The notes: generated from the sequence alone by a model not told the origin. A stretch of DNA of 43,342 bases from Thermoplasmata archaeon (GCA_021790425.1 JAJYEA010000012.1:1-43342); one strand, 5' to 3'; shown: positions 3,861-43,227, numbered from the stretch's first letter. Translations and numbers: made by a program.

Positions 3861-3952
3861 CTTGGACCACCACTATTGGAAGAGAGTTCGTCCTTCATCT
3901 ATGTTACGGTGGCTCTCGCGAGGTGCGTCCGCGTGCGTTTCGGTGGGGGCAT

Positions 3953-3959
3953 CTTTAAA
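3953..3959 (+). promoter_or_regulatory. TATA box of pdaD
   Basis: CTTTAAA centred at 3956; adding 26 bases predicts transcription from about 3982, at the GTG at 3983. This is the reason for choosing that start. Confidence 0.65.
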
Positions 3960-3982
3960 GAGATGTGGTATATGCCCCGCTC

Positions 3983-4483
3983 GTGCCCACTGCGAAGCGC
4001 ACCGATGAGGTCTCCCTGGTGCCCATCCCGACCCGGTTCTTTGTCACGAGTGGCCGCGCAATCAACAAGACGAGCGAGCTCAATGCGTTCGATCTTGCGT
4101 TGCTGAAGGCCGGCATCGGAGAGCAGAACCTCGTCAGCGTCTCGAGCATCCTTCCCGACGGGGTGCGACAGGTGGAACGCCGCCCCCTCCCGATGGGGGC
4201 CATCGTGCACTGCGTCCTCGCCCGCCATGGGGGCGGCGAGGGAGAGGTCATCAGCGCCGGCATCGCGTACGGGTTCCGGGAGGATGGACGCGGCGGGTAC
4301 GTCGCCGAGGGTCACCTGCACGGCACGCAGAAGGCGCTCAAGGAATTCCTCCGCTGGCGTATGGAGGAGATCGCTCACTTCCGTGGCGTCGAGCTCAAGA
4401 AGATCAACTACCGCACGGAGGAGCTCCAGATCCCCATGGACCACTACGGGGTCTGCATCGCCGCGTGCGTCTTCCTGAAGTAG
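3983..4483 (+). CDS. pdaD: Pyruvoyl-dependent arginine decarboxylase
   Basis: This enzyme decarboxylates arginine to agmatine, the first step of archaeal polyamine synthesis (agmatine is also needed for tRNA-Ile modification), using a pyruvoyl group made by self-cleavage. The sequence shows PTRFF.TSG, then LNAFDLALLKAGIGEQNL, then VSVSSILP: the Ser-Ser pair (54/55 from this start) is the known cleavage site giving beta and alpha chains. LPMGAIV and the later GEVISAGIAYGF also match the family. Length (166 residues) is typical. An in-frame GTG at 3965 would add six residues, but the TATA box at 3953-3959 fits a leaderless GTG at 3983. It stands alone, divergent from a surface-protein gene. Confidence 0.93.
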   Translation: MPTAKRTDEVSLVPIPTRFFVTSGRAINKTSELNAFDLALLKAGIGEQNLVSVSSILPDGVRQVERRPLPMGAIVHCVLARHGGGEGEVISAGIAYGFREDGRGGYVAEGHLHGTQKALKEFLRWRMEEIAHFRGVELKKINYRTEELQIPMDHYGVCIAACVFLK

Positions 4484-4511
4484 GTTCCGACCGGACCAGC
4501 GACCGCGCGCG

Positions 4512-5462
4512 TTAGAGCGCTCGGGCCATCGTATAGGTGTCCAAGACCTTCTCGAACCCGTTCGATTCCAGGGCGGGAACCGTGGGGGCCAGGTAGTCGG
4601 GCACGGGCGCCACGATCTCCCTCGTCGACGACCGCGCCAACCAGTCGAGCGCCGACAGGGTCAGACCGTACACCTCCGAGGGCGGGATCCCGGCGCTGAG
4701 GGCGGGTAGGAAGAGGAATCCAGGGTCCCCCGCGCCCGAACGGTAGGCGCGTGCATAGCCTCGGGTCCCTCCGCCATCCCCGGCGATCCAGGTGGCGTTC
4801 TCGGACCATTGGGGAAGGGACGTCAGCTCCGTTCCCGAGAGGCACCCCCGCGGGGGAGGTAGGACCCGGCGGAGTTTCTCGGGGGTGTTGGCGGTGCACC
4901 AGGCCGTTGCCGCCTTCAGCTCCTCGCGGGTCGTCACCGGACGGACCGTCCCGGGGATGGCGGAGCGTGGTCCCGGCCCCGATGTCTTCCGGCGATACCA
5001 CCCCACCGTCTGGAGGATCTGGTAACCGCGGGCCCGATAGAGGCGGTAGGCCGATGCGTTCTCGCATTCGACGTCCAGCACGGCCCACGGCCGGTGCCGA
5101 CGCCGGATGGAGTCCTCGGCGATGTCCAGAAGGCGGGTGGCGACCCCCTGCTTTCGATGCGAGGCCTCCGTGCCCACCGCGGCGACGTACCCGGACTCCC
5201 GGAGGTAGAGCACGATGGTGGTCCCGACCACCTTCCCTCCCGCCCGGGCGGCGAGGAACGTCACCGGGCTCCGATGGAGGAGCCCCAGGAACCGAAGGAA
5301 CGCGTACCCCGCCCCGCGGAAGGCCCGGTCCATCTCCCGCGGTGCCCGGACCTCCATGCCGAGGAGGTAGTCCACGGGCCCGAGGTTCCGGACGACGAAA
5401 TCGAGATAGGAGCCGCGGTCCGCGCGACGGGCCCCCCCGAACTCGATCGCGGGGGCGGGCAC
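4512..5462 (-). CDS. Tandem GNAT-fold N-acetyltransferase
   Basis: The first half (about residues 5-160) is a GNAT domain: strand GKVVGTTIVLYL, then the acetyl-CoA motif A in VGTEASHRKQGVATRLLDIAE (R/Q-x-x-G-x-A pyrophosphate loop), then VLDVECENASAYRLYRARGYQ, the usual motif B. The second half (about 180-316) looks like a degenerate GNAT repeat without a clear acetyl-CoA loop and ends in PALESNGFEKVLDTYTMAR, which resembles the last GNAT strands. Two-domain GNATs are common; the acceptor is unknown. The start is GTG at 5460-5462, four bases after the stop of the SCP2-like gene, so it is probably the last gene of an rnhB-SCP2-GNAT operon. Confidence 0.82.
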   Translation of the reverse strand: MPAPAIEFGGARRADRGSYLDFVVRNLGPVDYLLGMEVRAPREMDRAFRGAGYAFLRFLGLLHRSPVTFLAARAGGKVVGTTIVLYLRESGYVAAVGTEASHRKQGVATRLLDIAEDSIRRRHRPWAVLDVECENASAYRLYRARGYQILQTVGWYRRKTSGPGPRSAIPGTVRPVTTREELKAATAWCTANTPEKLRRVLPPPRGCLSGTELTSLPQWSENATWIAGDGGGTRGYARAYRSGAGDPGFLFLPALSAGIPPSEVYGLTLSALDWLARSSTREIVAPVPDYLAPTVPALESNGFEKVLDTYTMARAL

Positions 5463-5466
5463 GGGA

Positions 5467-5799
5467 TCAGAGGAGCCGGCGGAGGAGGATCTTGTCCTCG
5501 AGGCTCGCCTCGATGACGAGCTTGCGGGTGACGAGGGCCTTCATCGGGCCGATCTCCTTCTTGACGAGCCCGTTGAACGTCTCCCGGTCGGTGATGATCT
5601 TGACGTCCGGCTTGGTCCCGTCGGCCTTGACCGGCAGGGAGAGCTGGGAGTCCTTCAGGATGATCTGGAAGGTATCCCCGTCGGTGAGATGGAGCTCGAT
5701 GGTGCGGCGGATCTCGCGGAGCTCCTGCTTCACGGCCGGGTTCCGATGGACATGGCTGTTGAACCGGTCCACCATCGACACCAGGGTCTCTTCGATCAT
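5467..5799 (-). CDS. SCP2 sterol-carrier-like small protein
   Basis: The 110-residue product has the pattern of the SCP2-like lipid-binding fold: an N-terminal helix, IRRTIELHLTDGDTFQIILKDSQLSL (central strands), DVKIITDRETFNGLVKKEIGPMKALVTRKLVIEAS, matching the family's D..i..d.e.l..l..G...p..a...gki...G block. The role would be binding or transfer of a hydrophobic ligand; the ligand is unknown. Its ATG overlaps the rnhB stop in an ATGA, and the GNAT gene follows after four bases, so the three genes are very likely co-translated. Confidence 0.72.
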   Translation of the reverse strand: MIEETLVSMVDRFNSHVHRNPAVKQELREIRRTIELHLTDGDTFQIILKDSQLSLPVKADGTKPDVKIITDRETFNGLVKKEIGPMKALVTRKLVIEASLEDKILLRRLL

Positions 5800-6506
5800 T
5801 CCACGAAGTCCTCGAGAGGTCGGAGGCTCGGGGTTCTATTAAGGGTGTCGAACGTCTTCCACGACCGCCGGACCCAGCGGGGGATCTTCCCACCCTGCAC
5901 GAGCGCCTCGACGCAGTCCCGGGTGGTCCGGTCGGACGGGTAGCCGCTCCCGAGCGCGAGCCCGCTCTGGCGCCGGATCCGCTCGATCGCCCGGTCGCGC
6001 GTCACCTTCGCGACGATGCTGGCCGCCCCCACGAGCGGCAGGTCGCGGTCGGCCTTGTGGCGGGAGAGCACCCGGACGTTCCCGCCCTGCTCCTCGACCC
6101 GGGCCCGGAGGACGCGTCCGAAGCGCTCGGCGTCCGGGTCGCACGCGTCCACCTCGACCCGGTGTGCGCCCAGCCGGACCACCAGGCTCGCCATCAGGTC
6201 GACCTCCAGGAGGTTGAGTTTCCCCCGGTGGACGTACCGGTCGATCCGCTCAGGGGAGGCGGACGCGGTGGCCCACGACCCGTGCTGGCGGAGGAGCCCG
6301 AAGATCCGGCGGCGTTCCGACGGGGAGAGGAGCTTCGAGTCGCGGACCCCGAGCTCCACCAGCTTCCGGGCATCCGTGTCGGTGTAGTCCGGGAGGGCGA
6401 ACGCCCCGACCACCAGCGGGCCCACGAGGCTGCCGCGCCCGGCCTCGTCAAGCCCCACGTGTACCGTGGTCCGGTCGCTCACGCCGGGGGGAACTTCGGC
6501 CCCCAC
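5796..6506 (-). CDS. rnhB: Ribonuclease HII
   Basis: Cleaves the RNA strand of RNA-DNA hybrids, including single ribonucleotides in DNA. Near the start is GLDEAGRGSLVGPLVVGA, with catalytic Asp20-Glu21; Asp120 lies in VEVDACDPD; then HKAD..LPLVGAASIVAKVTRD, the diagnostic RNase HII block; and SGYPSDRTT, the substrate-recognition loop. Length (236) is normal for the archaeal enzyme. The start is a GTG at 6504-6506; a second in-frame GTG nine codons on (VSDRTTVHVG) is possible. First gene of the rnhB-SCP2-GNAT cluster and close behind the ribonucleotide reductase stop. Confidence 0.95.
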   Translation of the reverse strand: MGAEVPPGVSDRTTVHVGLDEAGRGSLVGPLVVGAFALPDYTDTDARKLVELGVRDSKLLSPSERRRIFGLLRQHGSWATASASPERIDRYVHRGKLNLLEVDLMASLVVRLGAHRVEVDACDPDAERFGRVLRARVEEQGGNVRVLSRHKADRDLPLVGAASIVAKVTRDRAIERIRRQSGLALGSGYPSDRTTRDCVEALVQGGKIPRWVRRSWKTFDTLNRTPSLRPLEDFVE

Positions 6507-25440: not shown

Positions 25441-26451
25441 ATGGCCACAACCGAGGAGGCGCTGAGACGGTGGGTAGAGCGTCCCCGGGCCCTCCTCGTC
25501 GGACTGGGGGGCGCGGGAACGGAGACCGTGAGCGACATCGAGGGCCCGGGACTCCCGGAGGCCATCGAGGCCCTGGCCATCAACACCGATGGCCACCACC
25601 TCTACTCGCAGAACGTCTCCCAGAAGCTCCTCTTGGGGGAGATGGAGTTACACGGCCGTGGCAGCGGGGGGGATCGGGCGGCGGTCGCGAATCTCCTCGC
25701 GAAAGAGAAGGACCGGCTCGTCTCGGTCTTCCGTCCCTACCATCTCGTGTTCCTCTTCGCCGGACTGGGGGGAGGGACCGGAAGCGCCCTGCTCCCCTTC
25801 TGCACGGCGGCCTGCCGGGAGGCAGGGGCCCTTCCGATCCCCGTGGCCATGCTTCCCTTCGAGGTGGAGCTGGAGTCCAATCCCACCCGCCGGGAGAATG
25901 CGCAGGCCACGCTGCGGGAGATGATCGCCGCCGGGGGCTTCTTCGTCGTGCTCTCCAACGAGAAGCTCCGTCGGTTCGAGTCCCAGCCGATCAAGAGCGT
26001 CTTCCAGATGCGGAGCACGTACCTCCGCCAACTCACCCTGAGCCTGATGGACATGATCGAGCACCCTTCCGAGATCAACGTGGACCTCGCACTCGTCCGC
26101 CGCCTCATCGAGGAGGCGGGGCTCTCCACGCTGATGGTGGCCCAGGGGCACATGGGCGATCCGGAGGCGCTGCTCCACCAAGCCGTCCAGGAGAGCTTCC
26201 TGGACTTCGAGATCAACGAGCCCGGCCCGGTCCTTCTCCACGTGGAGGGCGGCTCGAACCTCTCGCTCCGCACCCACCACCGGATCCTGGAGACCTTCCG
26301 GGCCGGCCTGAAGCACCCCCGCCACTTCGTCTTCGGGACGCGCATCATGAACAACCCCTCCGACGGTGTGAGAGTGACGGTCATCGTCGGGAAGCTGAAG
26401 GCCGCGACGGTCACGCGGCTGGTCCAGTCGAGCGGGGCTCGCCAGGGGTGA
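25441..26451 (+). CDS. FtsZ-family (tubulin/FtsZ GTPase) protein with an altered T7 loop
   Basis: The N-terminal Rossmann part is LLVGLGGAGTETVSDI, then AINTDGHHL. The tubulin signature is AGLGGGTGSALLPF (Gly108-Ser115). SNPTRRENA agrees with the FtsZ region after the signature. The catalytic T7 loop, NxDxxD in FtsZ, reads NVDLAL (213-218): Asn and the first Asp are kept, but the second Asp, needed for GTP hydrolysis on the neighbouring subunit, is Leu. At 336 residues it is shorter than typical FtsZ and lacks an obvious C-terminal tail peptide. GTP binding and perhaps stable filaments are expected; the hydrolysis defect is inference. It is co-transcribed with the CdrS-like gene. Confidence 0.83.
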   Translation: MATTEEALRRWVERPRALLVGLGGAGTETVSDIEGPGLPEAIEALAINTDGHHLYSQNVSQKLLLGEMELHGRGSGGDRAAVANLLAKEKDRLVSVFRPYHLVFLFAGLGGGTGSALLPFCTAACREAGALPIPVAMLPFEVELESNPTRRENAQATLREMIAAGGFFVVLSNEKLRRFESQPIKSVFQMRSTYLRQLTLSLMDMIEHPSEINVDLALVRRLIEEAGLSTLMVAQGHMGDPEALLHQAVQESFLDFEINEPGPVLLHVEGGSNLSLRTHHRILETFRAGLKHPRHFVFGTRIMNNPSDGVRVTVIVGKLKAATVTRLVQSSGARQG

Positions 26452-26477: not shown

Positions 26478-26517
26478 GCCTCGTGGGTCTCGCCGGGGCT
26501 CGCAGGCCGAACCGAGT

Positions 26518-26590
26518 GCTCCCGTAGTCTAGTGGTCAAGGATAGAGGCCTCTCGAGCCTCTGACGCGGGTTCAAATCCCGCCGGGAGCA
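26518..26590 (+). tRNA. tRNA-Glu (anticodon CTC)
   Basis: Acceptor GCTCCCG (26518-26524) pairs with CGGGAGC (26583-26589), discriminator A26590, no CCA. D-arm 26527-26543; anticodon stem GAGGC/GCCTC around CTCTCGA (26550-26556), anticodon 26552-26554 CTC with normal U33; T-stem GCGGG/CCCGC around TTCAAAT. Its 3' end is the likely integration target: the last 22 bases plus two flanking bases recur at 28090-28113. Confidence 0.95.
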
Positions 26591-26592
26591 TG
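26569..26592 (+). repeat. att-like core, copy 1 (tRNA-Glu 3' end)
   Basis: GGTTCAAATCCCGCCGGGAG then CATG: T-arm, acceptor strand, discriminator and two following bases. It matches 28090-28113 with one mismatch, and its 26576-26591 part matches 43206-43221 with one mismatch. Confidence 0.75.
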
Positions 26593-27558: not shown

Positions 27559-27774
27559 ATGGCCGGTGACGTGACTACCATCACGATCCCATCAGAGGTG
27601 CTCCGCCGCCTCAAGCTCTACAAGACCGGGGGAAGAACCTACAGCGAAGTGTTGGAGGAGTTCATGGATGCGGTTCCCCCGAAGGCATTTCTTGAGTGGG
27701 CAGAGCGCGAGCTTCAGAAGCCAACCGTCCCCTATCTTGAATTTCGCAAGACGGCCCTTTCCAAGAGCCGATAG
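27559..27774 (+). CDS. Antitoxin, RHH/VapB-like
   Basis: The 71-residue protein has the N-terminal TTITIPSEVLRRLKLYKTGGRTYSEVLEEFM, a strand-helix-helix DNA-binding element, and a charged C-terminal arm (WAERELQKPTVPYLEFRK) that would wrap the toxin. The antitoxin role rests on this and on the RelE-like gene that starts immediately after its stop. Two CAATTG-containing repeats upstream are its likely operator. Confidence 0.78.
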   Translation: MAGDVTTITIPSEVLRRLKLYKTGGRTYSEVLEEFMDAVPPKAFLEWAERELQKPTVPYLEFRKTALSKSR

Positions 27775-28050
27775 ATGGTTCTCGTCACCCTAACTTCTGA
27801 GGGGCAAACATCCTTCCGAAAGCTCCCTCCTTCAGTGCGTGAGGGCTACGATCAGCTCCTGATGCAATTCATAGAGGCTCGGAGGCTCACCCTGCCCGGG
27901 GAATGGAACTGCCACCAACTTGAAGGTGGGCGGCAGCTCTGGACCTTGAAGTTGGGCCCCTATCGTGGTATCTTCCGATGGGATGGCTTTGAGGCAAGGT
28001 TCGTGCGGTTCGGCCATTTCACCACGGTCTACACTCGGCTTCCAAAGTAG
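27775..28050 (+). CDS. RelE/ParE-family toxin
   Basis: The 91 residues show the RelE/ParE fold pattern: FRKLPPSVREGYDQLL (N-terminal helices), WNCHQLEGGRQLWTLKLGPYRGIFRWDG (the LWtLK.GpYR strand pair typical of the family) and FVRFGHFTTVYTRL (the last strand with GHxxxVY). RelE members cut mRNA in the ribosomal A site; ParE members inhibit gyrase. The GH..VY ending favours RelE-like, but this is not certain. The gene begins with no gap after the antitoxin, so the two are co-translated. Confidence 0.83.
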   Translation: MVLVTLTSEGQTSFRKLPPSVREGYDQLLMQFIEARRLTLPGEWNCHQLEGGRQLWTLKLGPYRGIFRWDGFEARFVRFGHFTTVYTRLPK

Positions 28051-28075: not shown

Positions 28076-28113
28076 TTTGAACCAAGGTTGGTTCAAATAC
28101 CGCCGGGAGCATG
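28076..28113 (+). repeat. att-like site, copy 2, with a 10-bp palindrome
   Basis: TTTGAACCAA (28076-28085) and its exact reverse complement TTGGTTCAAA (28088-28097) flank GG; the right arm runs into the tRNA-like core ending at 28113. The core 28090-28113 is 23/24 identical to 26569-26592. It lies directly after the toxin gene. Confidence 0.75.
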
Positions 28114-28503
28114 GCCACTGGTCTAAGCATTCACTGTACCGGTCCCCATCGGAGAAGTGGGCGGTCGAGGCGAAGCCCCTTCCAGCGCAATTCCCACGTG
28201 AAGGACTTCGATGCAGGCGGCTAACCGAGCGCTTGACCTGGGTTATCAGAAGCCCACTGAAGAAGCGATCCGCAACCGCGGGCACATCTGCGTCATCATG
28301 AAGGAAGTTGTCAGCTGGTTCTGCTTGGTGTCCCGCGAGAGAGTCCCGGTGAAAGCGAGTTGTAATCAATCATTACTCTGCAGGTGGGGTGTGTGAGGCC
28401 CTTGCCATTTCCCATGTGCATCTTGACGTGGGGCGGGAGTGAATCAAGACTGCAGACCGCCTTAGAGACGCTTCTTTAAACTCCAGTCGCTCTCCCTTCG
28501 GTG
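28114..28503. other. Non-coding stretch before the hsd operon
   Basis: 390 bases between the att-like copy and hsdM. Short frames exist on both strands, none with a recognisable motif; a decayed gene remnant is possible. The right end holds the hsd promoter. Confidence 0.5.
28473..28480 (+). promoter_or_regulatory. TATA box of the hsd operon
   Basis: TCTTTAAA centred at 28477; 26 bases on is 28503, at the hsdM ATG (28504), predicting a leaderless operon mRNA. Confidence 0.68.
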
Positions 28504-30069
28504 ATGGCTCGGAGGGAGGGGGAAGGGCGGGGGGAGTCCAATGGGACCGGAAGCGCCAACCTCGGCTTCGAGCGGACCATGTGGGCCGCTGCCGACAAGC
28601 TTCGGGGCTCGATGGACGCCGCCGAATACAAGCATGTTGTCCTCGGCCTGGTGTTCTTGAAGTACATCTCGGATGCCTTCCAGGAGCACCAAGTGAGCCT
28701 CGCCAAGAGCTACCCCGACGAGGCCGAGGACCGGGACTCCTACTCCGCCGAGGGTGTGTTCTGGGTCCCGAAGGAGGCGAGGTGGTCCCACCTCCAAGCC
28801 AACGCCAAGCAGCCAACCATCGGGAAACTTGTCGATGACGCAATGGATGCCATCGAGCGGGAGAACCCGACGCTGAAGGGGGTTCTTCCCAAGGACTACG
28901 CCCGTGCTTCCCTCGACAAGCAAAGGCTCGGCGAAATCATTGACTTGGTCGGAACCATCGGGCTGGGGGACAAGGAGAACCGCTCGAAGGACATCCTGGG
29001 GCGGGTCTACGAGTACTTCCTAGGCCAGTTCGCCTCTGCCGAGGGGAAGAAGGGCGGAGAATTTTACACCCCACGCTGCGTCGTCCGCCTTCTGGTCGAG
29101 ATGATCGAGCCGTTCAAGGGCCGGGTCTACGACCCGTGTTGCGGCTCAAGCGGGATGTTCGTCCAGAGCGAGGAGTTCATCAAGGAGCATGGCGGCAAGC
29201 TCGGGGACATCTCCATCTACGGTCAGGAGTCCAACCCGACCACTTGGAAGCTTGCCAAGATGAACCTGGCCATCCGGGGGATCGAGGCGAACCTGGGAAC
29301 GCACAATGCGGACACGTTTCGGAACGACCTCCACAAGGACATGAAGGCCGACTTCATCCTGGCGAACCCCCCGTTCAACATGAGCGACTGGGGCGGGGAG
29401 GGACTCAACGACGACGTGCGGTGGAAGTACGGGGTCCCTCCTCCCCGGAACGCCAACTACGCCTGGATCGAGCACATGATCCACCACCTTGCGCCCGGCG
29501 GGATTGCCGGGTTCGTGATGGCCAATGGTTCTATGTCATCACAGTCGAGTGGTGAGGGGGAGATTAGGAAGGCGCTCGTCCAAGCCGACCTTGTTGACTG
29601 TATGATCGCACTTCCAGGGCAGCTGTTCTACGGCTCGATGATCCCTGCCTGTCTCTGGTTCCTAGCACGGGACAAGGGGAACGGAAAGCTTAGGGACAGA
29701 CGCAAGCGAATCCTCTTCATCGACGCCCGCAAGATGGGGAACCTCATTGACAGAAGACACCGCGAACTTTCTGACGAGGAGATATCGAGAATCTCAACGA
29801 CGTTTCACGCTTGGCGAGGAAAGGAGGAAACGTCAAAATACGAGGACGCCGCCGGTTTTTGCAAGTCCGTGACGCTCGAAGATGTCGAGGCGCACGGATT
29901 CGTGTTAACGCCTGGGAGGTATGTCGGCTCCGAAGAAGAAGAGAACAATGGAGAACCGTTCCAGGACAGGATGGCGCGGCTGACTGAAACGCTTGAGAAA
30001 GATTTTGCAGAGTCCGCGCGACTCGGTGAGCAGATTAGAGCGAATCTTCGGTCCTTAGGAAAAGGCTGA
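28504..30069 (+). CDS. hsdM: Type I restriction-modification DNA methyltransferase subunit
   Basis: N6-adenine methyltransferase subunit of a type I system. The N-terminal HsdM helical domain ([32 protein letters not shown]) is followed by the SAM-binding motif [11 protein letters not shown] (about 210-219) after [17 protein letters not shown], and the catalytic NPPF (288-291). Length (521) is normal. The ATG is at 28504; a GTG just before it is in frame. HsdS starts one base after the stop. Base composition is intermediate between core and the later island genes. Confidence 0.96.
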
Positions 30070-30070
30070 C

Positions 30071-31405
30071 GTGTCAGGCAACACGGGCAGGCATCAACAG
30101 CAGATGGGCAGATACGAGTGGGCTCGCTACGAACTTGGGACCCTCACGGCAGTCCCAATTCGAAGCGGTACTTACGTTCCAAAGAGCCAGCGAGGGAGAG
30201 GCTCGAAACTAGTCAACATGGGTGAGTTGTTCGCGAACCCCAGACTCTTTGATATCGAGATGGAACGCGTCCCCATCTCCGAAACGGACAGATTGCGTTT
30301 TGAGCTCCAAGAAGGAGATTTGTTATTTGCACGCCGTTCCATGATTGGGACGGGCGCAAGTCAGTGCTCCATCGTGCGTGCGCTCGAGCATGGCTCGGTG
30401 TTCGACTCTTCGCTGATCCGGGTCCGTGTTAACTGCTCACTTCTCGACCCGCAATTCCTGTACTATTTCTTCTGGTCTCCCGAAGGTAGAGCGGAGGTAG
30501 ACTCTATTGGTCGACACGGCCCGATTTCTGGAATTACGGGGAGGGACCTTGCAACACTTCCAATCCCCGTGCCCGTCATTGAAGAACAGCGTGCCATCGC
30601 GCGCATTCTCGGCACCCTCGACGACAAGATCGAGCTCAACCACCGAGTAAACCAGGCGCTGGAAGACCTCTGCAGCATCCTGTTCAAATTCTGGTTCGTG
30701 GACTTTGGACCCGTCCGTGCGAAAGCTGAGGGACGCTGGAGGAAGGGCAAGAGTCTGTTAGGGATGCCTGCCGACATGTGGGACCTCTGGCCGAGCGAGT
30801 TCCAGCAGTCTGAGATTGGTGAAGTGCCGAAAGGATGGTCGGTAGAAGGCCTGTCAGGAATTGGGCATTTTCAGAATGGGCTTGCGTGCCAACGCTTTCC
30901 CCCACAGGATGGCAGGGCTCTTCCAGTCCTCAAGATTTCCGAACTTCGCTCCGGTACACTTAGAGGGGCGGATGTGGCCTCTGCTGATGTTCCGAAGGAC
31001 TACGTCACCACGGATGGAGACCTGATCTTCTCATGGTCGGGAAGCCTCGAAGTGAAGTTCTGGTACGGAGGCAAGGCTGTTCTGAACCAACATCTCTTCA
31101 AGGTTACTTCGGAAGCGTATCCATTGTGGTTCTGCCACGGTTGGTTGCTTGAGCGCCTCGAGGAGTTCCGGGCGATAGCGGAAGACAAGGCGACGACCAT
31201 GGGGCATATCCAGAGACGGCATCTCGATGAAGCATTGGTCGTTGTGCCCCCGAGAGTTGTCCTCACAGCGGCTAGCGTTGTCCTCACTCCATTGAGGGAA
31301 CTAATCTTAGCTGGGGAACTTGAGAGTCGAACACTTACTGACTTGCGAGACACCCTCCTCCCCAAGCTCCTTTCAGGGGAAGTTCGAGTCAAGGTGGACG
31401 CATGA
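30071..31405 (+). CDS. hsdS: Type I restriction-modification specificity subunit
   Basis: Two target-recognition domains separated by conserved helical spacers: the first (about 15-170) ends in [41 protein letters not shown], the classical HsdS spacer; the second (about 240-400) ends in LVVVPPRVV and the helix [33 protein letters not shown]. The two domains would each read half of a split target sequence, which cannot be deduced. The GTG start is at 30071, one base after hsdM; the stop overlaps hsdR (ATGA). The domains look unlike each other, as expected for an asymmetric target. Confidence 0.94.
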
Positions 31406-34400
31406 CCGAAAACCCCTCGCCTGCCTTCCGTGAGGACACCGTGGAGCAAGCGACCCTCGGCTATTTCCGTGACCTGGGCTACGACACCAAGTTCGGCCCC
31501 GACATTGCACCAGATGGCGGGTTCAAGGAACGAGGGAACTGGAACGATGTCGTCTTGGCTGGAAGGCTTCGGGCCGCTATTGACCGCCTCAACCCCCACC
31601 TCACAGAAGATGCCAAAGGGGATGCCTTCCGGAAGGTTCTCCGCTCCGAGAGCCCCAGCCTGGTTGTAACCAACCGCCGCTTCCACGACTTCCTCGCAAG
31701 TGGGGTAGACGTTGAGACTCGTAGAGATGGGGGTCGCATCGCCGGGGACAAGGCCTGGCTGGCCGACTACGACCATCCCGAGAACAACGATTGGCTAGTC
31801 GTGAACCAGCTAGCCGTGATTGAGAACGGGCACAGCCGAAGACCCGACATTGTCGTCTACCTCAACGGGCTCCCCATAGCCGTCTTTGAACTCAAGAACC
31901 CCGCCGATGAGGATGCTACAATCTGGACAGCATATGCTCAACTCCAGACCTACCAAGCCGAGATCCCCTCCCTCTTCCACCCCAACGAGTTGCTGGTGGT
32001 CTCTGATGGGGTCGAGGCGAGGCTTGGTTGTCTGACCTCAAGCCGGGAGCGGTTCATGCCCTGGCGAACCATTGACGGCAAGGAGGTACCCCCCAAGGGC
32101 ACGCTTGAGTTGGAAACTCTCATCCGGGGGGTGTTCGAGAAGGTACGACTCCTCGACCTCCTACGCAACTTCGTGGTGTTCGAGGACGATGGCGGGGCCA
32201 TCTCGAAGAAGGTCGCAGCCTACCACCAGTTTCGTGCGGTGAACCGGGCGGTCGAGGCCACCGTCAAGGCCGCCTCGATGAAGGGTGACAAGAGGGTGGG
32301 GGTGGTCTGGCACACCCAAGGTTCCGGTAAGAGCCTCACCATGACGTTCTACGCCTCCAAGATCGCCCGCCATCCCCCCCTTGCGAACCCTACCCTCGTA
32401 GTCCTGACAGACCGCAACGACCTTGACGGGCAACTTTTCGGCAAGTTCTCGGTCTGCCATTCCCTTCTACGCCAGACTCCCGTTCAGGCCGAGGGTCGTG
32501 ATGACCTGAAGCGACGTCTCAAGATAGCGTCCGGTGGGATCGTGTTCACCACGATTCAGAAGTTCTTGCCTGAGAAGGGCGAGAAGTACCCCCTCCTCAC
32601 TGATCGGAGGAATGTCATCGTCATTGCAGACGAAGCCCACCGGAGTCAATACGATTTCATCGATGGGTTTGCCCGGCACATGAGGGAGGCACTTCCCAAC
32701 GCCTCCTTTCTCGGGTTCACAGGTACCCCCATCGAGAAGGCGGACCGCAACACACGGGCGGTCTTCGGAGACTACATAGACATCTACGACATGCACAGGG
32801 CCGCCGAGGACGGTGCCACCGTCACGATCTACTACGAGGGACGACTCGCCCGGCTGGAACTCAAGAAGGCGGAGGTCCCCCGGATCGACCCCCAGTTTGA
32901 CGATGTCACAGAGGGAGAGGAGGAAGAAACAAAGGAGGACCTCAAGCACAAGTGGGCGCAACTGGAGGCGATGGTCGGAACCCCACACCGTCTGCGCCTC
33001 CTCGCCAAGGACATAGTGGACCACTTCGAAAACCGCTTAGAGTCGCTGGATGGCAAGGCGATGGTGGTCTGTATGAGCCGCCGTATCTGCGTCGCCCTCT
33101 TCAACGAGATCCGGAGGTTGCGGCCCGAGTGGACTGACCCGGACGATACCAAGGGGTCGCTGAAGGTGGTGATGACTGGATCAGCTCACGACCCACTTGA
33201 GTGGCAAGGGCACATCCACAACAAGCAACACAGGGAGGCGCTCGCCACCCGCTTCCGCGACCCCACGGACCCGTTCAAGCTGGTCATCGTCCGGGACATG
33301 TGGCTGACCGGCTTTGACGCTCCGTCTCTGCACACGATGTATGTCGACAAGCCGATGCGGGGACATGGCCTGATGCAGACCATTGCCAGGGTCAACCGAG
33401 TCTTCAAGGACAAGCCTGGGGGCCTCATTGTCGACTACCTGGGGATAGCCGATGAACTCCGGCGAGCACTGGCGGAGTACTCCGACAAAGACAAGATGAT
33501 GGCCGGGGTGCCAGTCGAGGAGGCGGTCCGTCTCATGCAGAAGCACTACGAGATCGTGCGGGACATGTACTACGGTTTCGACTGGAAGCCCTTCTTCTCG
33601 GGAACCCCCCATGAGAGAGTCGCGGTCATCCCTAGAGCCATGCAGCATGTCATTGGGCTGGAAGACGGGGAGAAACGGTATCTCAAGGCGGTCACCGACC
33701 TCTCGAAGGCCTTTGCCTTGTCGGTACCTGATGAGAGGGCTCTGGCGATCCGAGACGATGTGGGCTTCTTTCAGGCCGTCCGGGCGGCCTTGGCCAAGGC
33801 TACAGTCGAAGGGCGCAAGACCCCAGAGGAGCTTGACAGCGCCGTCCGCCAGATCGTGTCGAGGGCTGTGGTCTCTGACGATGTCGTCGACATCTTCACT
33901 GCGGCGGGGCTCAAGAAGCCCGAACTCTCGATCTTCTCGGACGAGTTCCTAGATGAGGTCCAACGCCTGCCGTACCGGAACCTTGCCTTGGAGGTTCTCC
34001 GAAAGCTGCTCAATGACGAGACCAAGGCCTGGTCACAGCGCAACCTGGTCCTGGGACGGAAGTTCTCCGAGATGCTGGAGCAGACGATCCGGAAGTACCA
34101 GAACCGAACCATGGACGCAGCCGAGGTGATCTCTTCGCTGGTTGCCCTCGCAAAGGACATGAAGGCGGCCAGGGAGCGGGGCGCCAAACTTGGACTATCT
34201 CAAGAGGAAGAGGCGTTCTACGACGCCCTCATCTCCGCTGACGCTTCCGCATTGGGGGTGTTGGGTGACGAGACATTGCGGGACATCGCCAAGCAGCTGG
34301 TCGAGACCGTGCGCAAGAACGTGAGCATCGACTGGACAGTGAAGGAGACCGTACGAGCGAAGCTTCGGGTAATGGTCAAGCGAGTGCTGAAGGACCGAGG

Positions 34401-34479
34401 GTATCCCCCTTCAAAGAGGGAAGAGGCGATACAGACTGTGCTCCAGCAGGCAGAGCTATTATGTGCGGACTGGTCGTGA
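31402..34479 (+). CDS. hsdR: Type I restriction endonuclease subunit
   Basis: Motor and nuclease subunit. The N-terminal PD-(D/E)xK nuclease is intact: [20 protein letters not shown], with Asp149, Glu163 and Lys165. The SF2 helicase core follows: Walker A QGSGKS (Gly307-Ser311), DEAHRSQ (410-416), FTGTPIE, and in the second RecA domain [12 protein letters not shown] and [10 protein letters not shown]-terminal helical part binds the methylase core. Length (1025) is normal and all catalytic motifs are present, so the system should be functional. Its ATG overlaps the hsdS stop; the next gene starts 36 bases after its stop. Confidence 0.96.
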
Positions 34480-34515: not shown

Positions 34516-37500
34516 ATGGACAGAGATCAAGCGCTCAAGAAGTTCGTCAACGAACACCTAGTCGAACTCTCTGACCAGGCAGCCACAAAGGAAGTTGTCA
34601 AGCGGATGAGGCAACAGTTCTTTCAACGTTTCAGTCTCACTTCAACAGAACGGTTCTCAAATGGCGAAGTTGCAGAGTCTTTGGCTACGACGGTAGCCAA
34701 GGTCCGACGCTCCAAACCGGCCCTGGAAGTGACGACACTGTTGCTGTCGATACCATTCATCAAGGAGGAACTGGGGGAGCAAAACGTCAGTGAGATAGTC
34801 TCTGCTGCACGAACTGGAGAGGCTCCCCAACTTACAGTCGAGGATCTCAGCAAGATAGGCAGGGAGGGCTATCTTGAGGGGCTTGAACAGAAGTTTCGAG
34901 ACAGGGCTCAGGCGGCAGCAGAAGCCCAACTGGAAGAGGAGAAGACCAAACTCAATGAGACCCTCGCGCTACTCAAGCAGCAGCAAGAAACTCTGAATCA
35001 TGCCGTTTCACAACTGGAGTCCGTGCCTCCTGACGCAGACTTAGAGTTGCTCGTTGGCCAGGAGCCAAGCGAGTCAGCGGCGACTGAGGCCCCTGTCTGG
35101 TGGAAGGAATTGGGTTTGGAGTCCGATCCATTTTCCTCCAACAGAGGCCTGTCCGACATCCCTGAGGCGAAGTATGATGACGTTGTCGTGAGAACCCCCT
35201 TTGTTCAGTCGTATGTTAACAAGATCGAGAAGTATCCAGAGTCTTTCCTAGGAAAGACCGTTGTTGTCCTGGGCGAATTTGGCTCAGGTAAGACCACGCT
35301 GTTTCAGTTGATGGCTTCCAAGGCCGTGACCAGAGGTCTCCTTCCCATCATCACATCTCTGCATCCTGACGTTTCAGTTTCCAGACTCACTACCCAACTC
35401 ATCGGGCAACTGCAGGAAGCACTGATACAGGCTTTTCCCCACTTGGCCAACGGTGCGTACACTGAAGGTGCGGAAGGGACGGACGACATCGGGCGAGCAC
35501 TACATGCGTTGACAGAGATCATACGACGCACACCGACAACCAGGGGCTTTCTCTTGTTTGTAGATGGACTGCACAAGACCGAAGCCTACCTGAAACAGAG
35601 CATCGAGTTCCTGTCTCAGCTGCAAACTCTTCAGGAGCGTTTTGAACTCAGAACCCTGCGCTTGGGGATCCTGGTTGCCGGATCTCCGAGATGGGAGACT
35701 GAGCTCAAGGCAAATCCCTCACTATCCGGGAGTTTCTACTCGATAGACTCGATCCCTCCCATTTCAGAAGATCAAGCAGTCGAATCTGTCATCCGCAGAG
35801 TACGCTCCTTCACCCCCGCAGGTGGATCTCCACCAACAATAGCTAGGGTGCCCCTGCGGACTGCCTACCAGGTACTTGCGCAGCGTCTCCTCTACCCGCC
35901 CACATTCAGGCACTACCTTGATCATGTAAGGGACCGTTTCGTCGCCCGTGACTACTCTACTCTTGGAGTCTCGATCAAATTGCATGTTGAGACGGTAAAG
36001 AGAGTGCGCACCCTTGTTGGACAGACGTCACTTGGGAAGAGCCATGCATTCTTGATAGACAAGACGCAACATGGACCTCGCCTGCTAGCTGGGCTTAGAC
36101 GCGTCTTGCCAGAGATATGCGAAAGGAAGGGGATCTCGGATCTCGATCCCTTCGTAAGCACATACAAGGGCGTCTTTGTGCTGCTGATGCGTCAGGGGTG
36201 GATCGTGAAACGGTTCGACACAAAGAGCGGGACGTTGGCATGGCATCTCTCGACACCAGTAGTTGAGTTTCTACAGTCTTTGGAGACACCTCCGAATAGG
36301 GTCCTGCCATCCGAGGCGCTTGAGGCATTGTTCACAGAGGTGAAGGAGATTGCGCCGGGCGAAGCAGAATCGATCTATGAACCGATCATTAGGCAAATGG
36401 AGGCCATGGTGGCTGCCTGGCGTGCTGGCTTGCCGGAGGTCGCTGACCTTGTCACGAAGGCGATGCAGGAGGTCAAGAAGATCGACGCCAAGTGCCGTCT
36501 GGAGGAAGGGGCATCCTCCGCAGATATCAGCGAGGAAGTGCGCACCTCGTTTTCAAATGTCGTCCGTGCCATCAACCTGGTCGTGACAGGGTCGGATGCT
36601 GCTGGCTCATCAGCCTTGGAGACGTTCCGAGGGTTATGGTGCGCACCCGAAAACTTTGGCAGCATGGTTCAGACATCCCAACGGGCAACGGCTTTCGATC
36701 CTTCAAAGTCAGAGACTTTCGGGGCCCTCTTGAATCATGCGCAGGCGCTTAGCGACCTCTGTGAACTTCTGTCTAGTGTCGTCCGAGGAGAGGGAGTTTG
36801 CAGGCTGACAGGCCGGACGCTCTCAGCAGTGGAGTTTGAAAGGTTTCACGCCGCCCGGACTTTGTTCCTGAGTCAACAGTACCAGTCCTCTCTGGACAAG
36901 GTCTGCGACCTTGTGGAGGGGAAGATAAGGGACACAATCCATGTGGCTTTGAGATGCAAAGTCGGTAGCCGGTTGAATTCATTGATCCCTCCCGATATCA
37001 GGGAACGGTTGAAGGACCCAGCCCGGGGCCACCCGAGGGCCAAGAGAGGAGCTGACCGCAACTTCCTTTATGACGTGAACCGAAGTGAATACGCGAAGAT
37101 ACTTCTTGGAGGAGAGACACGACGTGTCCTCTTCGATGCAATAGTTACGAATGAGGAACTGCCCAAACTGCGCAATGACCTGGAGTTGCTGTTCTCATTA
37201 GGGGATCGTGATGCGCATAGAGACAGGCCATCCTACTTCCGAGAGAAGGCAACAGAGATTGCTACCGTCCTTCAGGCGGCTCCACGTCTATGCGAAGTCA
37301 TGAATAGAACAGTCGCCCATCTTGTCGAAGGTCCGTTTGAGCTAGATAGGTCCGATGGAGGCATTACGTTCATCTACGGAAAGAAGGGTGGTGAAGACGC
37401 CGAGCATCACCTTTCATCTGAAGAGGTTCGGTCTTTGGTGAGCGAAGTGCTCGGGCGTCTTGAAGGTGGCGAGATCATGTTGCCTCCGCTGGAGCCACCC

Positions 37501-37683
37501 CTGATCGGCTTACCCTTCATGCCTGAGATCGGCTTGGGGGGAATACGGGCGTGCAGGATCCAAGAACTGTTGACAATTGACAAGGTCCAAAATGCCTTCG
37601 GCTACAGGGTGGCACTGTCCGAGAAAGGTCAGGACAGGCTGAAGAATCTGAGGAAGAAGGCTGGAGAAGACCAGGCGGGTTGA
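34516..37683 (+). CDS. Large P-loop ATPase of unknown family, attached to the hsd operon (candidate defence protein)
   Basis: 1055 residues. Parts: an unknown helical N-terminus (about 1-115), a coiled coil (about 118-168, Glu/Gln/Lys-rich), and an Orc1/Cdc6- or STAND-like ATPase (about 195-470) with Walker A GEFGSGKTT (253-261), Walker B FLLFVDGLHK (Asp350, followed by Gly instead of the usual acidic residue), a LGILVAGSPRW sensor-like strand and a SIPPISEDQAVESVIRRV lid. Then a winged-helix-like segment (about 490-600) and a long helical C-terminus. Near 898-901 is DRDAHRD, reminiscent of the RNxxAH motif of HEPN-like domains but without its Arg. The start ATG is 36 bases after hsdR, same strand. 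Base composition is the lowest in the window. No named family recognised; the defence role is inferred from position. Confidence 0.8.
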   Translation: MDRDQALKKFVNEHLVELSDQAATKEVVKRMRQQFFQRFSLTSTERFSNGEVAESLATTVAKVRRSKPALEVTTLLLSIPFIKEELGEQNVSEIVSAARTGEAPQLTVEDLSKIGREGYLEGLEQKFRDRAQAAAEAQLEEEKTKLNETLALLKQQQETLNHAVSQLESVPPDADLELLVGQEPSESAATEAPVWWKELGLESDPFSSNRGLSDIPEAKYDDVVVRTPFVQSYVNKIEKYPESFLGKTVVVLGEFGSGKTTLFQLMASKAVTRGLLPIITSLHPDVSVSRLTTQLIGQLQEALIQAFPHLANGAYTEGAEGTDDIGRALHALTEIIRRTPTTRGFLLFVDGLHKTEAYLKQSIEFLSQLQTLQERFELRTLRLGILVAGSPRWETELKANPSLSGSFYSIDSIPPISEDQAVESVIRRVRSFTPAGGSPPTIARVPLRTAYQVLAQRLLYPPTFRHYLDHVRDRFVARDYSTLGVSIKLHVETVKRVRTLVGQTSLGKSHAFLIDKTQHGPRLLAGLRRVLPEICERKGISDLDPFVSTYKGVFVLLMRQGWIVKRFDTKSGTLAWHLSTPVVEFLQSLETPPNRVLPSEALEALFTEVKEIAPGEAESIYEPIIRQMEAMVAAWRAGLPEVADLVTKAMQEVKKIDAKCRLEEGASSADISEEVRTSFSNVVRAINLVVTGSDAAGSSALETFRGLWCAPENFGSMVQTSQRATAFDPSKSETFGALLNHAQALSDLCELLSSVVRGEGVCRLTGRTLSAVEFERFHAARTLFLSQQYQSSLDKVCDLVEGKIRDTIHVALRCKVGSRLNSLIPPDIRERLKDPARGHPRAKRGADRNFLYDVNRSEYAKILLGGETRRVLFDAIVTNEELPKLRNDLELLFSLGDRDAHRDRPSYFREKATEIATVLQAAPRLCEVMNRTVAHLVEGPFELDRSDGGITFIYGKKGGEDAEHHLSSEEVRSLVSEVLGRLEGGEIMLPPLEPPLIGLPFMPEIGLGGIRACRIQELLTIDKVQNAFGYRVALSEKGQDRLKNLRKKAGEDQAG

Positions 37684-38137: not shown

Positions 38138-39037
38138 GTGGAGACACCCGAGTCGGAGGGAAGATTGGAGCCACCCCAAGGGAGTCCACCCTCGCCCCCT
38201 CCACGACCTCAGGTGCGGATAGTGGAGGTCGAGAGGGCAGGTGGGGTCGTCCAGCGATCTCGAAGAAGGCTTCATTCACATTCGAAACCACGGGGCTACC
38301 GTCCCCTGCTGAAGCGGGACGAAGCCACCAAACCGCTGATCGGGGAGGAGGCTGGAATGGTCTTGGAGGCGGCTGAGGGGATGGTCTGGAATCGCAGGAT
38401 AGCCGCTCAGCTAGGCGTTGACGGAGAGTACCTCGGGGGGTTCGGCATCGTCGAGGACCCGACCTTCGTCCTACGTACCGTTCAGGTCCTCCTCTTTTCA
38501 GCGATGCACATCTCTGTGCTCCCTACCCTTACGTCCAGGAACCTCGAGTCCGTGGAGGGGGAGGTGTTCCTGACGTGGCGACGCCCCAAGACGGAGAGAT
38601 GGGCGTCTGTGCGAGTTCCCGAGGAAGTGCGACCTTGGATCGCATCCTACCTCGACCTGCCGAAGCCTATGACCCCGGACGCGTATCGTGACGTGCTCGA
38701 CAAGCTCGCCGTAAGGGTCGAGGTCATGTTCGGAGTGATAATGCATCTCTCCCCTCTCCGGTTCAGGCATGGCGGGATCACGGAAGCGAAGAACGAACTC
38801 AACCTCACGGATCGGGAGGCCGCAATCGTGGCTGCGTCTACGCTGAAGACGGTTCAGGAGTACGCCTCCCTGATGGACAACCTACTGCTGGCCCGGAAGA
38901 TGAAAGACGCAGGCCAGGACCAGATGTTCGCACGGATGAAGGAGAAGAGAAGGAAGTACCGGCCCGAGAGTCGATCAAGATCCCCGCAGTACCCGTCCCC
39001 TCGGAGTAGGGACCCAGCACCGGAGCTTACGAGTTGA
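38138..39037 (+). CDS. Degenerate tyrosine-recombinase-like protein
   Basis: The C-terminal half follows the integrase pattern: VLLFSAMHISVLPTLTSRNLESVEGEVFLTWRRPKTERWASVRVPEEVRPWIASYL aligns with the Arg-I box and beta-hairpin Lys of tyrosine recombinases, HLSPLRFRHGGITEAKNEL with box II (Arg208 or Arg210, His211), and LKTVQEYASL with the nucleophile Tyr242. But the first catalytic Arg is His124, and the HxxR His is absent. The N-terminus (about 1-60) is Pro/Arg-rich with no clear core-binding domain. It may be an inactive remnant or a diverged recombinase. The start is a GTG at 38138; later starts are possible. Its place beside structured repeats inside a tRNA-bounded island supports the assignment. 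Confidence 0.6.
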   Translation: METPESEGRLEPPQGSPPSPPPRPQVRIVEVERAGGVVQRSRRRLHSHSKPRGYRPLLKRDEATKPLIGEEAGMVLEAAEGMVWNRRIAAQLGVDGEYLGGFGIVEDPTFVLRTVQVLLFSAMHISVLPTLTSRNLESVEGEVFLTWRRPKTERWASVRVPEEVRPWIASYLDLPKPMTPDAYRDVLDKLAVRVEVMFGVIMHLSPLRFRHGGITEAKNELNLTDREAAIVAASTLKTVQEYASLMDNLLLARKMKDAGQDQMFARMKEKRRKYRPESRSRSPQYPSPRSRDPAPELTS

Positions 39038-39465: not shown

Positions 39466-40119
39466 TCAAGGCAAGGGGATGCCATAGCGGTTGAGCACTT
39501 CGGCAGCAACCAGAGAGAAAGGGGAATCGTTTCGAGCCAACTCTTGGATTCCCCGCACCTTGAGATCGTGCAGACTCGGCTGACTCTCAGCAATCGCATC
39601 CTCGCAAAGCTGAACAAGAGTATTGATCACGCGGGCACGATCTTCTATGAGTCCAGCTCGATTGAGCTTGAGAAGGTCGATGGTGATTCTCCCTCTAGTG
39701 TTGCCGGGATGGGGATAGATGAATGGCCCTTCGGCAGTGATGAATGACGAAGGATCTTCGGAGTAGGGGTCGATTGGGGGATATGCTTCATCAAACGTGT
39801 CGCGCTTCGCTACATTGCACTGTGGACATGACCAGCCCAGGTTTGCCCACTCGAATGTTCTTTCGGGGAAGGTTGCCTTCGGACGATAATGCTCCACGTG
39901 TCCAAATGCGACAGGCTCGACACGGCCTTCGCAATACATGCACTTTCTCAGCGCATCTCGGCGAAGCGCTGCCCGGACATCTGGGTGTCCATAACGCTGA
40001 GAGACTTTCACACCGTTAACCGTGCCCCCATCAGAAAGGTCTTGCATCAGCTCATCGGTCCATGACTGGCCGTTTTCGACCAAGACATCGGGGGGGGTTC
40101 CCCTTTGAATCCGGATCAT
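39466..40119 (-). CDS. ptuB: HNH endonuclease of a Septu-like system
   Basis: The 217-residue product has an HNH core with a zinc-holding Cys set: KCMYCEG (Cys60, Cys63), then HVEHYRPK (His74, His77), then WANLGWSCPQCNVAKRD (Asn93, Cys98, Cys101, Asn102). The VEHYRPK and W.NL...C..CN layout is the one seen in PtuB nucleases of Septu anti-phage systems and in retron-linked HNH effectors. The start overlaps the stop of the ATPase gene (40116-40119), so it is translated with it. A Septu call needs the pair; each gene alone could be something else. Confidence 0.83.
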   Translation of the reverse strand: MIRIQRGTPPDVLVENGQSWTDELMQDLSDGGTVNGVKVSQRYGHPDVRAALRRDALRKCMYCEGRVEPVAFGHVEHYRPKATFPERTFEWANLGWSCPQCNVAKRDTFDEAYPPIDPYSEDPSSFITAEGPFIYPHPGNTRGRITIDLLKLNRAGLIEDRARVINTLVQLCEDAIAESQPSLHDLKVRGIQELARNDSPFSLVAAEVLNRYGIPLP

Positions 40120-41357
40120 CTGTCCTTTCCTCCCCTCTTTTGCCTTAGGAGGGCCACAGGCAACAGGTCCCCAAGGTTCGCACGGTCTAGGTCTGCCTTC
40201 AACTCGGTAATTGAAGACGGGCTGGCCCCCTCCCTCATGTACTTGGCGACAAGCTCATCGAATTTCTTCTCAACCCAGATCGGGTAAGTAGACGGGACAT
40301 CTAGTGCCTTCTGAAGCACTTCCGAAGCGGACCCCGACGTCTGGGCCAAGTCCAGTTTCTCGCTCACCACTTTCCTGTCCTCCGAGAACATCAATGCGTA
40401 GGCTTGGGCCTCAGGGACGGAACTCACCACCAAGGGGCTATGAGTCGCTACCAAGAAAGTTGCCTTTGGGAAGGCATTGAGAAGTGAGGGGAGCACTTCG
40501 CGTTGCATGCCCGGATGAAGATGATTCTCAGGCTCGTCGAGAACGACAGTAAACTCATCTTCCTTGAACGCGGCATACATATAGATTAACCAGCCCAGGG
40601 TGAGAAGTGCGCCAACTCCGCCAGAGACTGCATCCAACAAGAACGCTCCCGACTCGGTCTCCAACACAACTTCAGAATTCCTTACTGCCAGGCGCGAGAA
40701 GCCTATCTGTCTTGGTAGTATCTTTCTTAGAGTATCCTGAAAGCCCTCGAAGAGACGGCGGGCGGATGAGTCAGGGTCCACCACTGGGTTCCCATATCCG
40801 AACACAGCCAGTCCGACCAGCACTTCCTTCATGTGCTGTACGGTTGAGTGTTGGCCCCCCTGACTCAAGGCTACCTGCCTGAGGTCGTTCTCGACAAGGC
40901 TGAAAGCTTCCGATGACTGACGAGGGCGCACCGGAATCTGCTGAACTTGAGAGTAGGCGAACTCGGGACGGTCTGCAGGCAAGTACACCCCCATAATCGG
41001 TTGCTGCCCCGAGAGCTGCGGCTGGTACTGAGCCTGGCCAAGGTTGATGGGTATGCGTATGTCAGCTACCTTGCCATTCGAATACTCAAGCTGACCCGCA
41101 GAGTATGTGCCCGCCTGAGTCAAACCGGTGACGTTATCCTCCCAGAGGTTCATGGCCGTCCAGCCTCCCTTTCTCTTCTTGTCTGGAACCGCCAATGATT
41201 GATAGTTCCAGTTCAAATGTCTTCCTACGAAGCGAAGGATGGTACTCTTTCCACTTCCGTTGGCTCCCGTGAGAATCGTGAGTCGCTCATGACAAGCGAT
41301 ATCGATAGAGCGCATCTGCTGCCAGTTCTGAACCAAGACCCTGGTAATCCGAACCAT
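40116..41357 (-). CDS. ptuA: AAA/ABC-type ATPase of a Septu-like system
   Basis: 413 residues with an OLD/SMC-like ATPase layout: ILTGANGSGKSTILRFVG (Walker A, Lys37), the ABC signature-like DAVSGGVGALLTLGWLIYMYAAF, Walker B VVLDEPENHLHPGMQREVLPSL (Asp274, Glu275), then a H-loop-like ATHSPLVV. This suits PtuA, which forms a sensor/ATPase complex with the HNH PtuB. It is somewhat shorter than many PtuA proteins. Promoter at 41382-41390, with a leaderless ATG at 41357; ptuB is coupled downstream. The pair is transcribed against the recombinase-like gene. Confidence 0.85.
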   Translation of the reverse strand: MVRITRVLVQNWQQMRSIDIACHERLTILTGANGSGKSTILRFVGRHLNWNYQSLAVPDKKRKGGWTAMNLWEDNVTGLTQAGTYSAGQLEYSNGKVADIRIPINLGQAQYQPQLSGQQPIMGVYLPADRPEFAYSQVQQIPVRPRQSSEAFSLVENDLRQVALSQGGQHSTVQHMKEVLVGLAVFGYGNPVVDPDSSARRLFEGFQDTLRKILPRQIGFSRLAVRNSEVVLETESGAFLLDAVSGGVGALLTLGWLIYMYAAFKEDEFTVVLDEPENHLHPGMQREVLPSLLNAFPKATFLVATHSPLVVSSVPEAQAYALMFSEDRKVVSEKLDLAQTSGSASEVLQKALDVPSTYPIWVEKKFDELVAKYMREGASPSSITELKADLDRANLGDLLPVALLRQKRGGKDR

Positions 41358-43184: not shown

Positions 43185-43221
43185 TTTGAACCCGTTTGGG
43201 TATGCATCCCGCCGGGGGCAT
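43185..43221 (+). repeat. att-like site, copy 3 (right end of the island)
   Basis: The same 37-base layout as 28076-28112: TTTGAACC at the left, a GGGT/TGGGT-like middle, and ATCCCGCCGGGGGCAT at the right (43206-43221), one mismatch from the tRNA end at 26576-26591. The left arm also reads as GGGTTCAAATACC on the minus strand. Confidence 0.6.
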
Positions 43222-43227
43222 AGTGAG

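Follow-up and report, generated by a model that had tools for sequence, protein, structure and literature searches.

An AAA+ ATPase with a predicted C-terminal HEPN domain is encoded next to the type I restriction genes of a Thermoplasmata archaeon

Results

An ATPase gene follows hsdR in a low-GC defence island

The stretch of DNA analysed here (the window) comprises 43,342 nucleotides from a Thermoplasmata archaeon and carries all three genes of a type I restriction operon on one strand, in the order hsdM, hsdS, hsdR (Table 1). After a gap of 36 bases, the same strand continues with a reading frame of 1,055 stop-free codons, for which the random expectation is approximately 1e-20 at the frame's own base composition. 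A relative from a different class of the phylum shows 40% identity to the encoded protein over the whole length. An earlier note, made from the sequence alone, had described a 1055-residue STAND- or Orc/Cdc6-like ATPase at this distance behind hsdR, with a coiled coil and a Walker A motif at residues 253–261. Each of these elements was recovered: the hsd genes by PADLOC, the ATPase by Pfam (AAA_16 and AAA_22) and by Foldseek (Apaf-1 and ORC2), the Walker A motif at the residues given and the coiled coil by prediction.

The ATPase gene is located within a mobile, low-GC defence island. Between about 27 kb and the contig end, GC content is approximately 55–60%, with one 1-kb bin at 61%, compared with approximately 60–73% in the backbone upstream. 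The likely attachment site is a tRNA-Glu(CTC) gene, immediately preceded by a gene for a CetZ/FtsZ-like tubulin (25441–26451, +). The note's proposal of an island bounded by tRNA repeats was only partly right: the tRNA-Glu 3' end is repeated at 96% identity, but both of these clear repeats lie upstream of hsdM, and the sole right-hand candidate (43199–43222, near the contig end) is 75% identical to the tRNA-Glu 3' end. Another genome of the same genus holds a different insert at its CetZ/tRNA-Glu(CTC) site, an AbiEi/AbiEii-type gene pair (L049, 13149–15100, −). Together with the low GC content, this different insert supports the island itself, and it marks the site as a hotspot at which defence cargo integrates. 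The island in the window also contains a complete Septu system, with adjacent PtuA and PtuB genes downstream of the ATPase gene on the opposite strand.

Two further features of the region were recorded. Two small adjoining genes between the tRNA-Glu repeats (27559–28050, +; 71 and 91 amino acids) have the look of a toxin–antitoxin pair; the only match is a weak one of the first to VAPB_antitox. Downstream of the ATPase gene, the C-terminal third of a 299-residue open reading frame (38138–39037, +) resembles a degenerate tyrosine recombinase by eye; this frame was rejected as an integrase, as it matched no Pfam family and was not similar to the integrase found beside one of the homologues (L034, below).

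Table 1. Features of the window, in order of position
Feature	Coordinates	Strand	Evidence or remark
tRNA-Glu(CTC), likely attachment site	26517..26591	+	
att-like repeat	28090..28113	+	96% copy of tRNA-Glu 3' end (26569-26592)
hsdM, type I methyltransferase	28501..30069	+	PADLOC MTase_I, E 2e-231
hsdS, type I specificity subunit	30071..31405	+	PADLOC Specificity_I, E 2.9e-85
hsdR, type I restriction subunit	31402..34479	+	PADLOC REase_I, 1112.6 bits; TIGR00348, E 8e-186
AAA+ ATPase–predicted HEPN protein gene	34516..37683	+	1055 aa, ATG start, no internal stop
N-terminal all-helical domain, residues 1-100	34516..34815	+	AF2 pLDDT ~74-90; conserved in family; no known match
Predicted coiled coil, residues 119-168	34870..35019	+	
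Predicted AAA+ (STAND/ORC-type) ATPase domain, residues 195-431	35098..35808	+	Pfam, Foldseek, motifs
Walker A GEFGSGKTT, residues 253-261	35272..35298	+	
Possible winged-helix segment after ATPase lid, residues 521-590	36076..36285	+	helix-helix-strand-strand-helix in AF2 model, low to moderate confidence
Predicted Swt1-type HEPN domain, residues 797-937	36904..37326	+	hhalign to 12 Swt1-HEPN domains
HEPN Ex3R, E801-x3-R805	36916..36930	+	invariant in 7 homologues; aligns with E..LR of Swt1-HEPN
R856 and Y859	37081..37092	+	invariant, particular to family; R856 a candidate substitute for lost HEPN arginine
Predicted HEPN active-site loop, D897-R-D-A-H901-R-D903	37204..37224	+	His invariant
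C-terminal segment, possible winged helix, residues 942-1055	37339..37680	+	low-confidence AF2 model
Septu PtuB (HNH nuclease), same island	39466..40119	-	PADLOC PtuB, E 5.7e-62
Septu PtuA (ATPase), same island	40116..41357	-	PADLOC PtuA, E 1.2e-137

The ATPase domain resembles STAND and ORC proteins

The protein is predicted to contain an AAA+ ATPase of the STAND/ORC kind, with Walker A, Walker B and lid in a matching fold, as judged from a full-length model that is weak overall (pLDDT 58, pTM 0.34). Pfam matched AAA_16 (2.7e-8) and AAA_22 (1.5e-5) on the window protein, and AAA_22 was matched in seven of the eight family members described below. The conserved motifs include a lead-in (WW..GL..[DN]P[FY]), Walker B (hhhhDGLHK, residues 346–354), a sensor 1 region (AG...W, 388–393) and an invariant R428. 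Foldseek searches with the full-length model returned Apaf-1 (6.6e-6) and archaeal ORC2 (1.3e-4), together with Cdc6 and NLR resistosome proteins (Sr35). Whole-protein searches of Pfam, PADLOC, NCBIfam, PHROGs and PDB sequences gave matches to the P-loop/ATPase region only.

The C terminus is a predicted Swt1-type HEPN domain

The otherwise unassigned C terminus was compared with HEPN domains by aligning a profile of the family to a profile of 12 Swt1-type HEPN domains collected from the same phylum. hhalign produced a co-linear match of approximately 110 columns that extends up to the active-site loop (probability 94.5%, E 7.8e-8, score 51.6), whereas none of 26 controls (15 column shuffles, 10 block shuffles and the reversal) scored above 16.8. 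Regions outside the domain scored 15.2 or less, and a slice limited to the final portion of the domain reached 27.8. The match stood at 89% when L033 was left out and at 15% when both DpnI-linked members were, still over approximately 107 columns. One family member also matches Pfam HEPN_Swt1 (PF18731) at E 0.019. A model of the C terminus (pLDDT 75, pTM 0.64) gave no significant Foldseek match (best E 1.8; the HEPN toxins 5yep and 6m6w at E 3.0–4.4); therefore, it is the profile comparison that identifies the C terminus as a predicted HEPN domain of the Swt1 type. In the model, the motif sits at the end of one helix and before the last long helix, matching the HEPN description (PMC3710099).

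Seven homologues, which fall to 14% identity to the window copy over the domain, share R781, E801, R805, G817, N849, R856, Y859 and H901 without exception. This family and Swt1-HEPN have invariant E, R and H columns in common, and both the Ex3[KR] acidic motif and the whole-domain profile homology of Swt1-like HEPN domains are present. A DRDAHRD stretch that had been noticed earlier near residues 898–901 spans 897–903 and corresponds to the predicted active-site loop. The Rx4-6H motif is absent, as six of the seven sequences have G, D or S where its arginine (H-5) would stand (the window copy, with G896, and five of the six others); the polar residue that follows is D in six of seven. Because of this replacement, the domain may be non-catalytic. 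HEPN families without that arginine but with other conserved basic residues have been described (PMC3710099), and Arg856 might take the place of the lost residue. With the canonical arginine missing, RNase activity is something that we infer for the window protein.

The family is rare and its DNase partner changes between loci

Relatives are few: five true members were found among 390 genomes drawn from the phylum and six among 400 genomes of the class, two draws that overlap, and the distinct copies number eight with the window included (window, L006/L017, L007, L008, L016/L018, L032, L033 and L034). The gene was not found in the four same-genus genomes searched, and two more genomes hold decayed C-terminal remnants (L035, which has stop codons within the match, and L036, for which the match in the class search covers only 26 residues). 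The family is thus small, rare and patchy in Thermoplasmatota, with a distribution that is decaying and associated with integrases or tRNAs. Tblastn searches of 72,556 plasmids and 50,697 phages detected no relative. Single-protein pattern scans of genome contigs and viral contigs returned nothing; an alignment-based pattern had L017 and L018 among the matches listed for genome contigs and no match in viral contigs. Bacterial chromosomes were covered by short-pattern scans only. The matches L014, L015, L026, L027, L030, L031 and L040 were set aside because they cover the ATPase profile incompletely, for the most part at the P-loop; L014 and L015, the two that were translated, are HerA-like and Rad50-like by eye, respectively.

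A restriction-type nuclease is present beside four of the seven non-window copies, and the partner differs from locus to locus: DpnI twice, an EVE + type II endonuclease, an HSDR_N-type protein and, in the window, HsdR. The earlier note had named homologues mostly in non-defence contexts as a finding that would refute its reading; the outcome favoured the note, as the relatives lie in restriction contexts, not housekeeping ones. In L033, DpnI lies 129 bases upstream of the ATPase gene on the same strand, with Dam-type and other methylases nearby; in L032, it lies 2.3 kb upstream. These two loci belong to different taxonomic families, and their DpnI proteins and their ATPases are each approximately 47% identical, so the linkage is either old or has moved repeatedly as a unit. 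Two such adjacencies are unlikely to have arisen by chance because just 37 of the 400 genomes from the class carry DpnI (~0.35% × 0.6%, or ~2e-5, for both). NucS_C-like nuclease genes also occur near both of these homologues (L032 4654–5433, +; L033 16626–17855, +). For L033 and contig C85 of genome G416, three distinct matches to DpnI stand on a single contig, and two of these are partial, which suggests repeated DpnI insertion or decay.

The remaining loci vary further. In L016, the EVE + REase_II gene is 515 bases upstream of the ATPase gene, followed by a HEPN_RiboL-PSP gene and a NucS/PD-(D/E)XK-like nuclease; these genes stand in a row upstream of the homologue (3347–6089, −) and could form a multi-gene restriction cluster. 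A comparison with this RiboL-PSP HEPN neighbour gave nothing. The L007 copy is missing the first ~420 residues and has a DUF1828 gene (PADLOC PDC-M24B) upstream and the HSDR_N_2 protein downstream. The L034 homologue sits beside a tyrosine integrase that follows a tRNA-Leu, at a locus that ends at the contig edge. No recognisable restriction enzyme was found among the neighbour genes of L006 and L008.

Discussion

The earlier note knew of no described accessory gene with this layout. At the level of general design this does not hold, as ATPase–HEPN proteins tied to restriction are a known kind, represented by PrrC and DUF499-HEPN; what stands is that this specific family matched none of those searched. 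PrrC, the partner of EcoprrI, is restrained by the restriction enzyme and released once a phage blocks that enzyme (PMC3710099, PMC3874165, PMC12839542). In common with the window protein, PrrC joins an NTPase at the N terminus to a HEPN domain at the C terminus in one chain, and its gene accompanies a type I hsd operon (PMC3710099, PMC3874165). However, the NTPase of PrrC is of the ABC class, whereas that of the window protein finds its best families in AAA_16 and AAA_22 (AAA+/STAND-ORC) and does not have ABC character. The window protein also differs in its Swt1-like HEPN domain with the canonical arginine lost, in the position of its gene after hsdR and in having relatives that pair with DpnI and other DNases. 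DUF499 proteins with an Abi2/SWT1 HEPN domain, from systems related to Type-1 BREX, share the fusion of a STAND/ORC AAA+ to a Swt1-family HEPN domain in a restriction context (PMC3710099, PMC12839542), but there the HEPN domain lies at the N terminus and a dedicated MTase and helicase act as partners, whereas here it is C-terminal and the family pairs with HsdMSR, DpnI and other enzymes. The DUF499 profile had no match to the window protein up to E 10, nor was it among the families shown for the eight members, and regions 1–420 of the window protein had no HEPN match. The window protein most plausibly functions as these proteins do, but because its NTPase is not ABC, DUF499 is not matched and the HEPN domain is C-terminal, it is neither PrrC nor DUF499-HEPN.

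Other systems share parts of the architecture. BrxC/BrxD of BREX (DUF6079, PF10923) also have an ORC/Cdc6-type ATPase followed by winged helices, and PF10923 was weakly matched in three members (best 6.7e-4), but on the window protein it reached 14.2 bits against a cut-off of 22.2, in the P-loop region only. Neither PglZ nor PglX was recognised among the island genes scanned, and BrxC is without the HEPN domain predicted here. RloC combines an ATPase, a coiled coil and a C-terminal HEPN nuclease, but its ATPase is of the ABC/Rad50 type and it has no restriction linkage (PMC3710099). Avs and other STAND defence proteins are similar by fold match in their STAND-like ATPase sensor; unlike them, the window protein has no PADLOC match, carries its HEPN-like domain at the C terminus and is linked to restriction genes. 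No described family with the order AAA+ then C-terminal HEPN, an altered motif and exchangeable partners was matched among the families searched. In kind, the window protein is a known arrangement, an ATPase–HEPN protein linked to restriction; it is assembled from different components, and its DNase partners can be exchanged.

Because the rare relatives adjoin quite different DNA-cutting enzymes, the protein is probably a back-up defence. By analogy with PrrC, we lean towards a sensor–effector that acts as a second line released when restriction fails, a reading that we hold tentatively and at a little short of even confidence. In an uninfected cell, the protein would be kept inactive through contact with the partner restriction complex, or as an ADP-bound monomer. 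Inhibition or overrunning of restriction, or the sensing of persistent foreign DNA, would act as the trigger; an ATP-driven rearrangement or oligomerisation would then expose the HEPN domain, which would cut RNA and so stop growth or virus production. We infer every element of this scheme, namely the restraint by the partner, the trigger, the RNase activity and its target, and the defence role, and the role of anti-viral effector has the same standing.

The main rival, possible though in our view doubtful, is that the HEPN domain is dead and serves for nucleic acid or protein binding while the ATPase helps a DNase. The protein would then be an accessory restriction motor or matchmaker whose AAA+ domain assembles on DNA, as do McrB, TnsC and BrxC, and recruits or stimulates the nuclease. 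The loss of the canonical arginine, the ORC/Cdc6-type ATPase with its winged-helix-like segments and the fact that every identified partner is a DNase are all consistent with such a role, and there are precedents in known non-catalytic HEPN domains and in the DUF499-HEPN AAA+, proposed as a DNA-looping subunit (PMC3710099). However, seven divergent homologues all retain His901, Glu801, Arg805 and Arg856, which exceeds what a dead domain would need, and both HsdMSR and DpnI are already complete restriction enzymes that require no extra ATPase.

It is unlikely that the protein is instead an independent STAND-type defence, which would sense a viral component, arrest growth through the HEPN domain and share islands with restriction genes because defence genes cluster. 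The fold matches to Apaf-1 and Sr35 would suit this, as would the two homologues without a restriction neighbour and the presence of Septu in the same island, unlinked to the ATPase. Such independence is difficult to reconcile with the same-strand order directly after the nuclease, both in the window and in L033, or with a DpnI linkage that is kept across two taxonomic families at 47% protein identity, and the Avs-type models of PADLOC had no match. An Orc/Cdc6-like replication or maintenance factor of an integrative element is very improbable: the structural similarity to ORC/Cdc6 and the integrase at L034 point that way, but a HEPN domain is predicted, the partners belong to restriction and not to replication, an integrase was identified at only one of eight loci, no relative occurred in the plasmids or phages searched, and distribution and domain content together led us to reject an Orc/Cdc6 housekeeping role.

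Returning to the PrrC-like sensor–effector, a broader formulation is conceivable, although we regard it as speculative. The family could represent undescribed archaeal "restriction guards", in which one AAA+–HEPN protein is coupled to unrelated DNases (HsdR, DpnI and EVE-type) and provides an RNA- or translation-directed second layer when DNA cutting fails, with Arg856 replacing the lost motif arginine in a rearranged HEPN active site. Little is known of archaeal defence other than CRISPR and restriction (PMC12988326). If the proposal is correct, the PrrC concept, in which a restriction enzyme is guarded by a suicide or arrest effector, would extend to archaea, there with an ATPase of another type. 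A single guard family would then be seen to switch between type I restriction and the methyl-directed (DpnI) form, which would suggest a general interface or a shared signal. The altered HEPN active site also offers a direct way of testing how far catalytic residues can shift within this superfamily.
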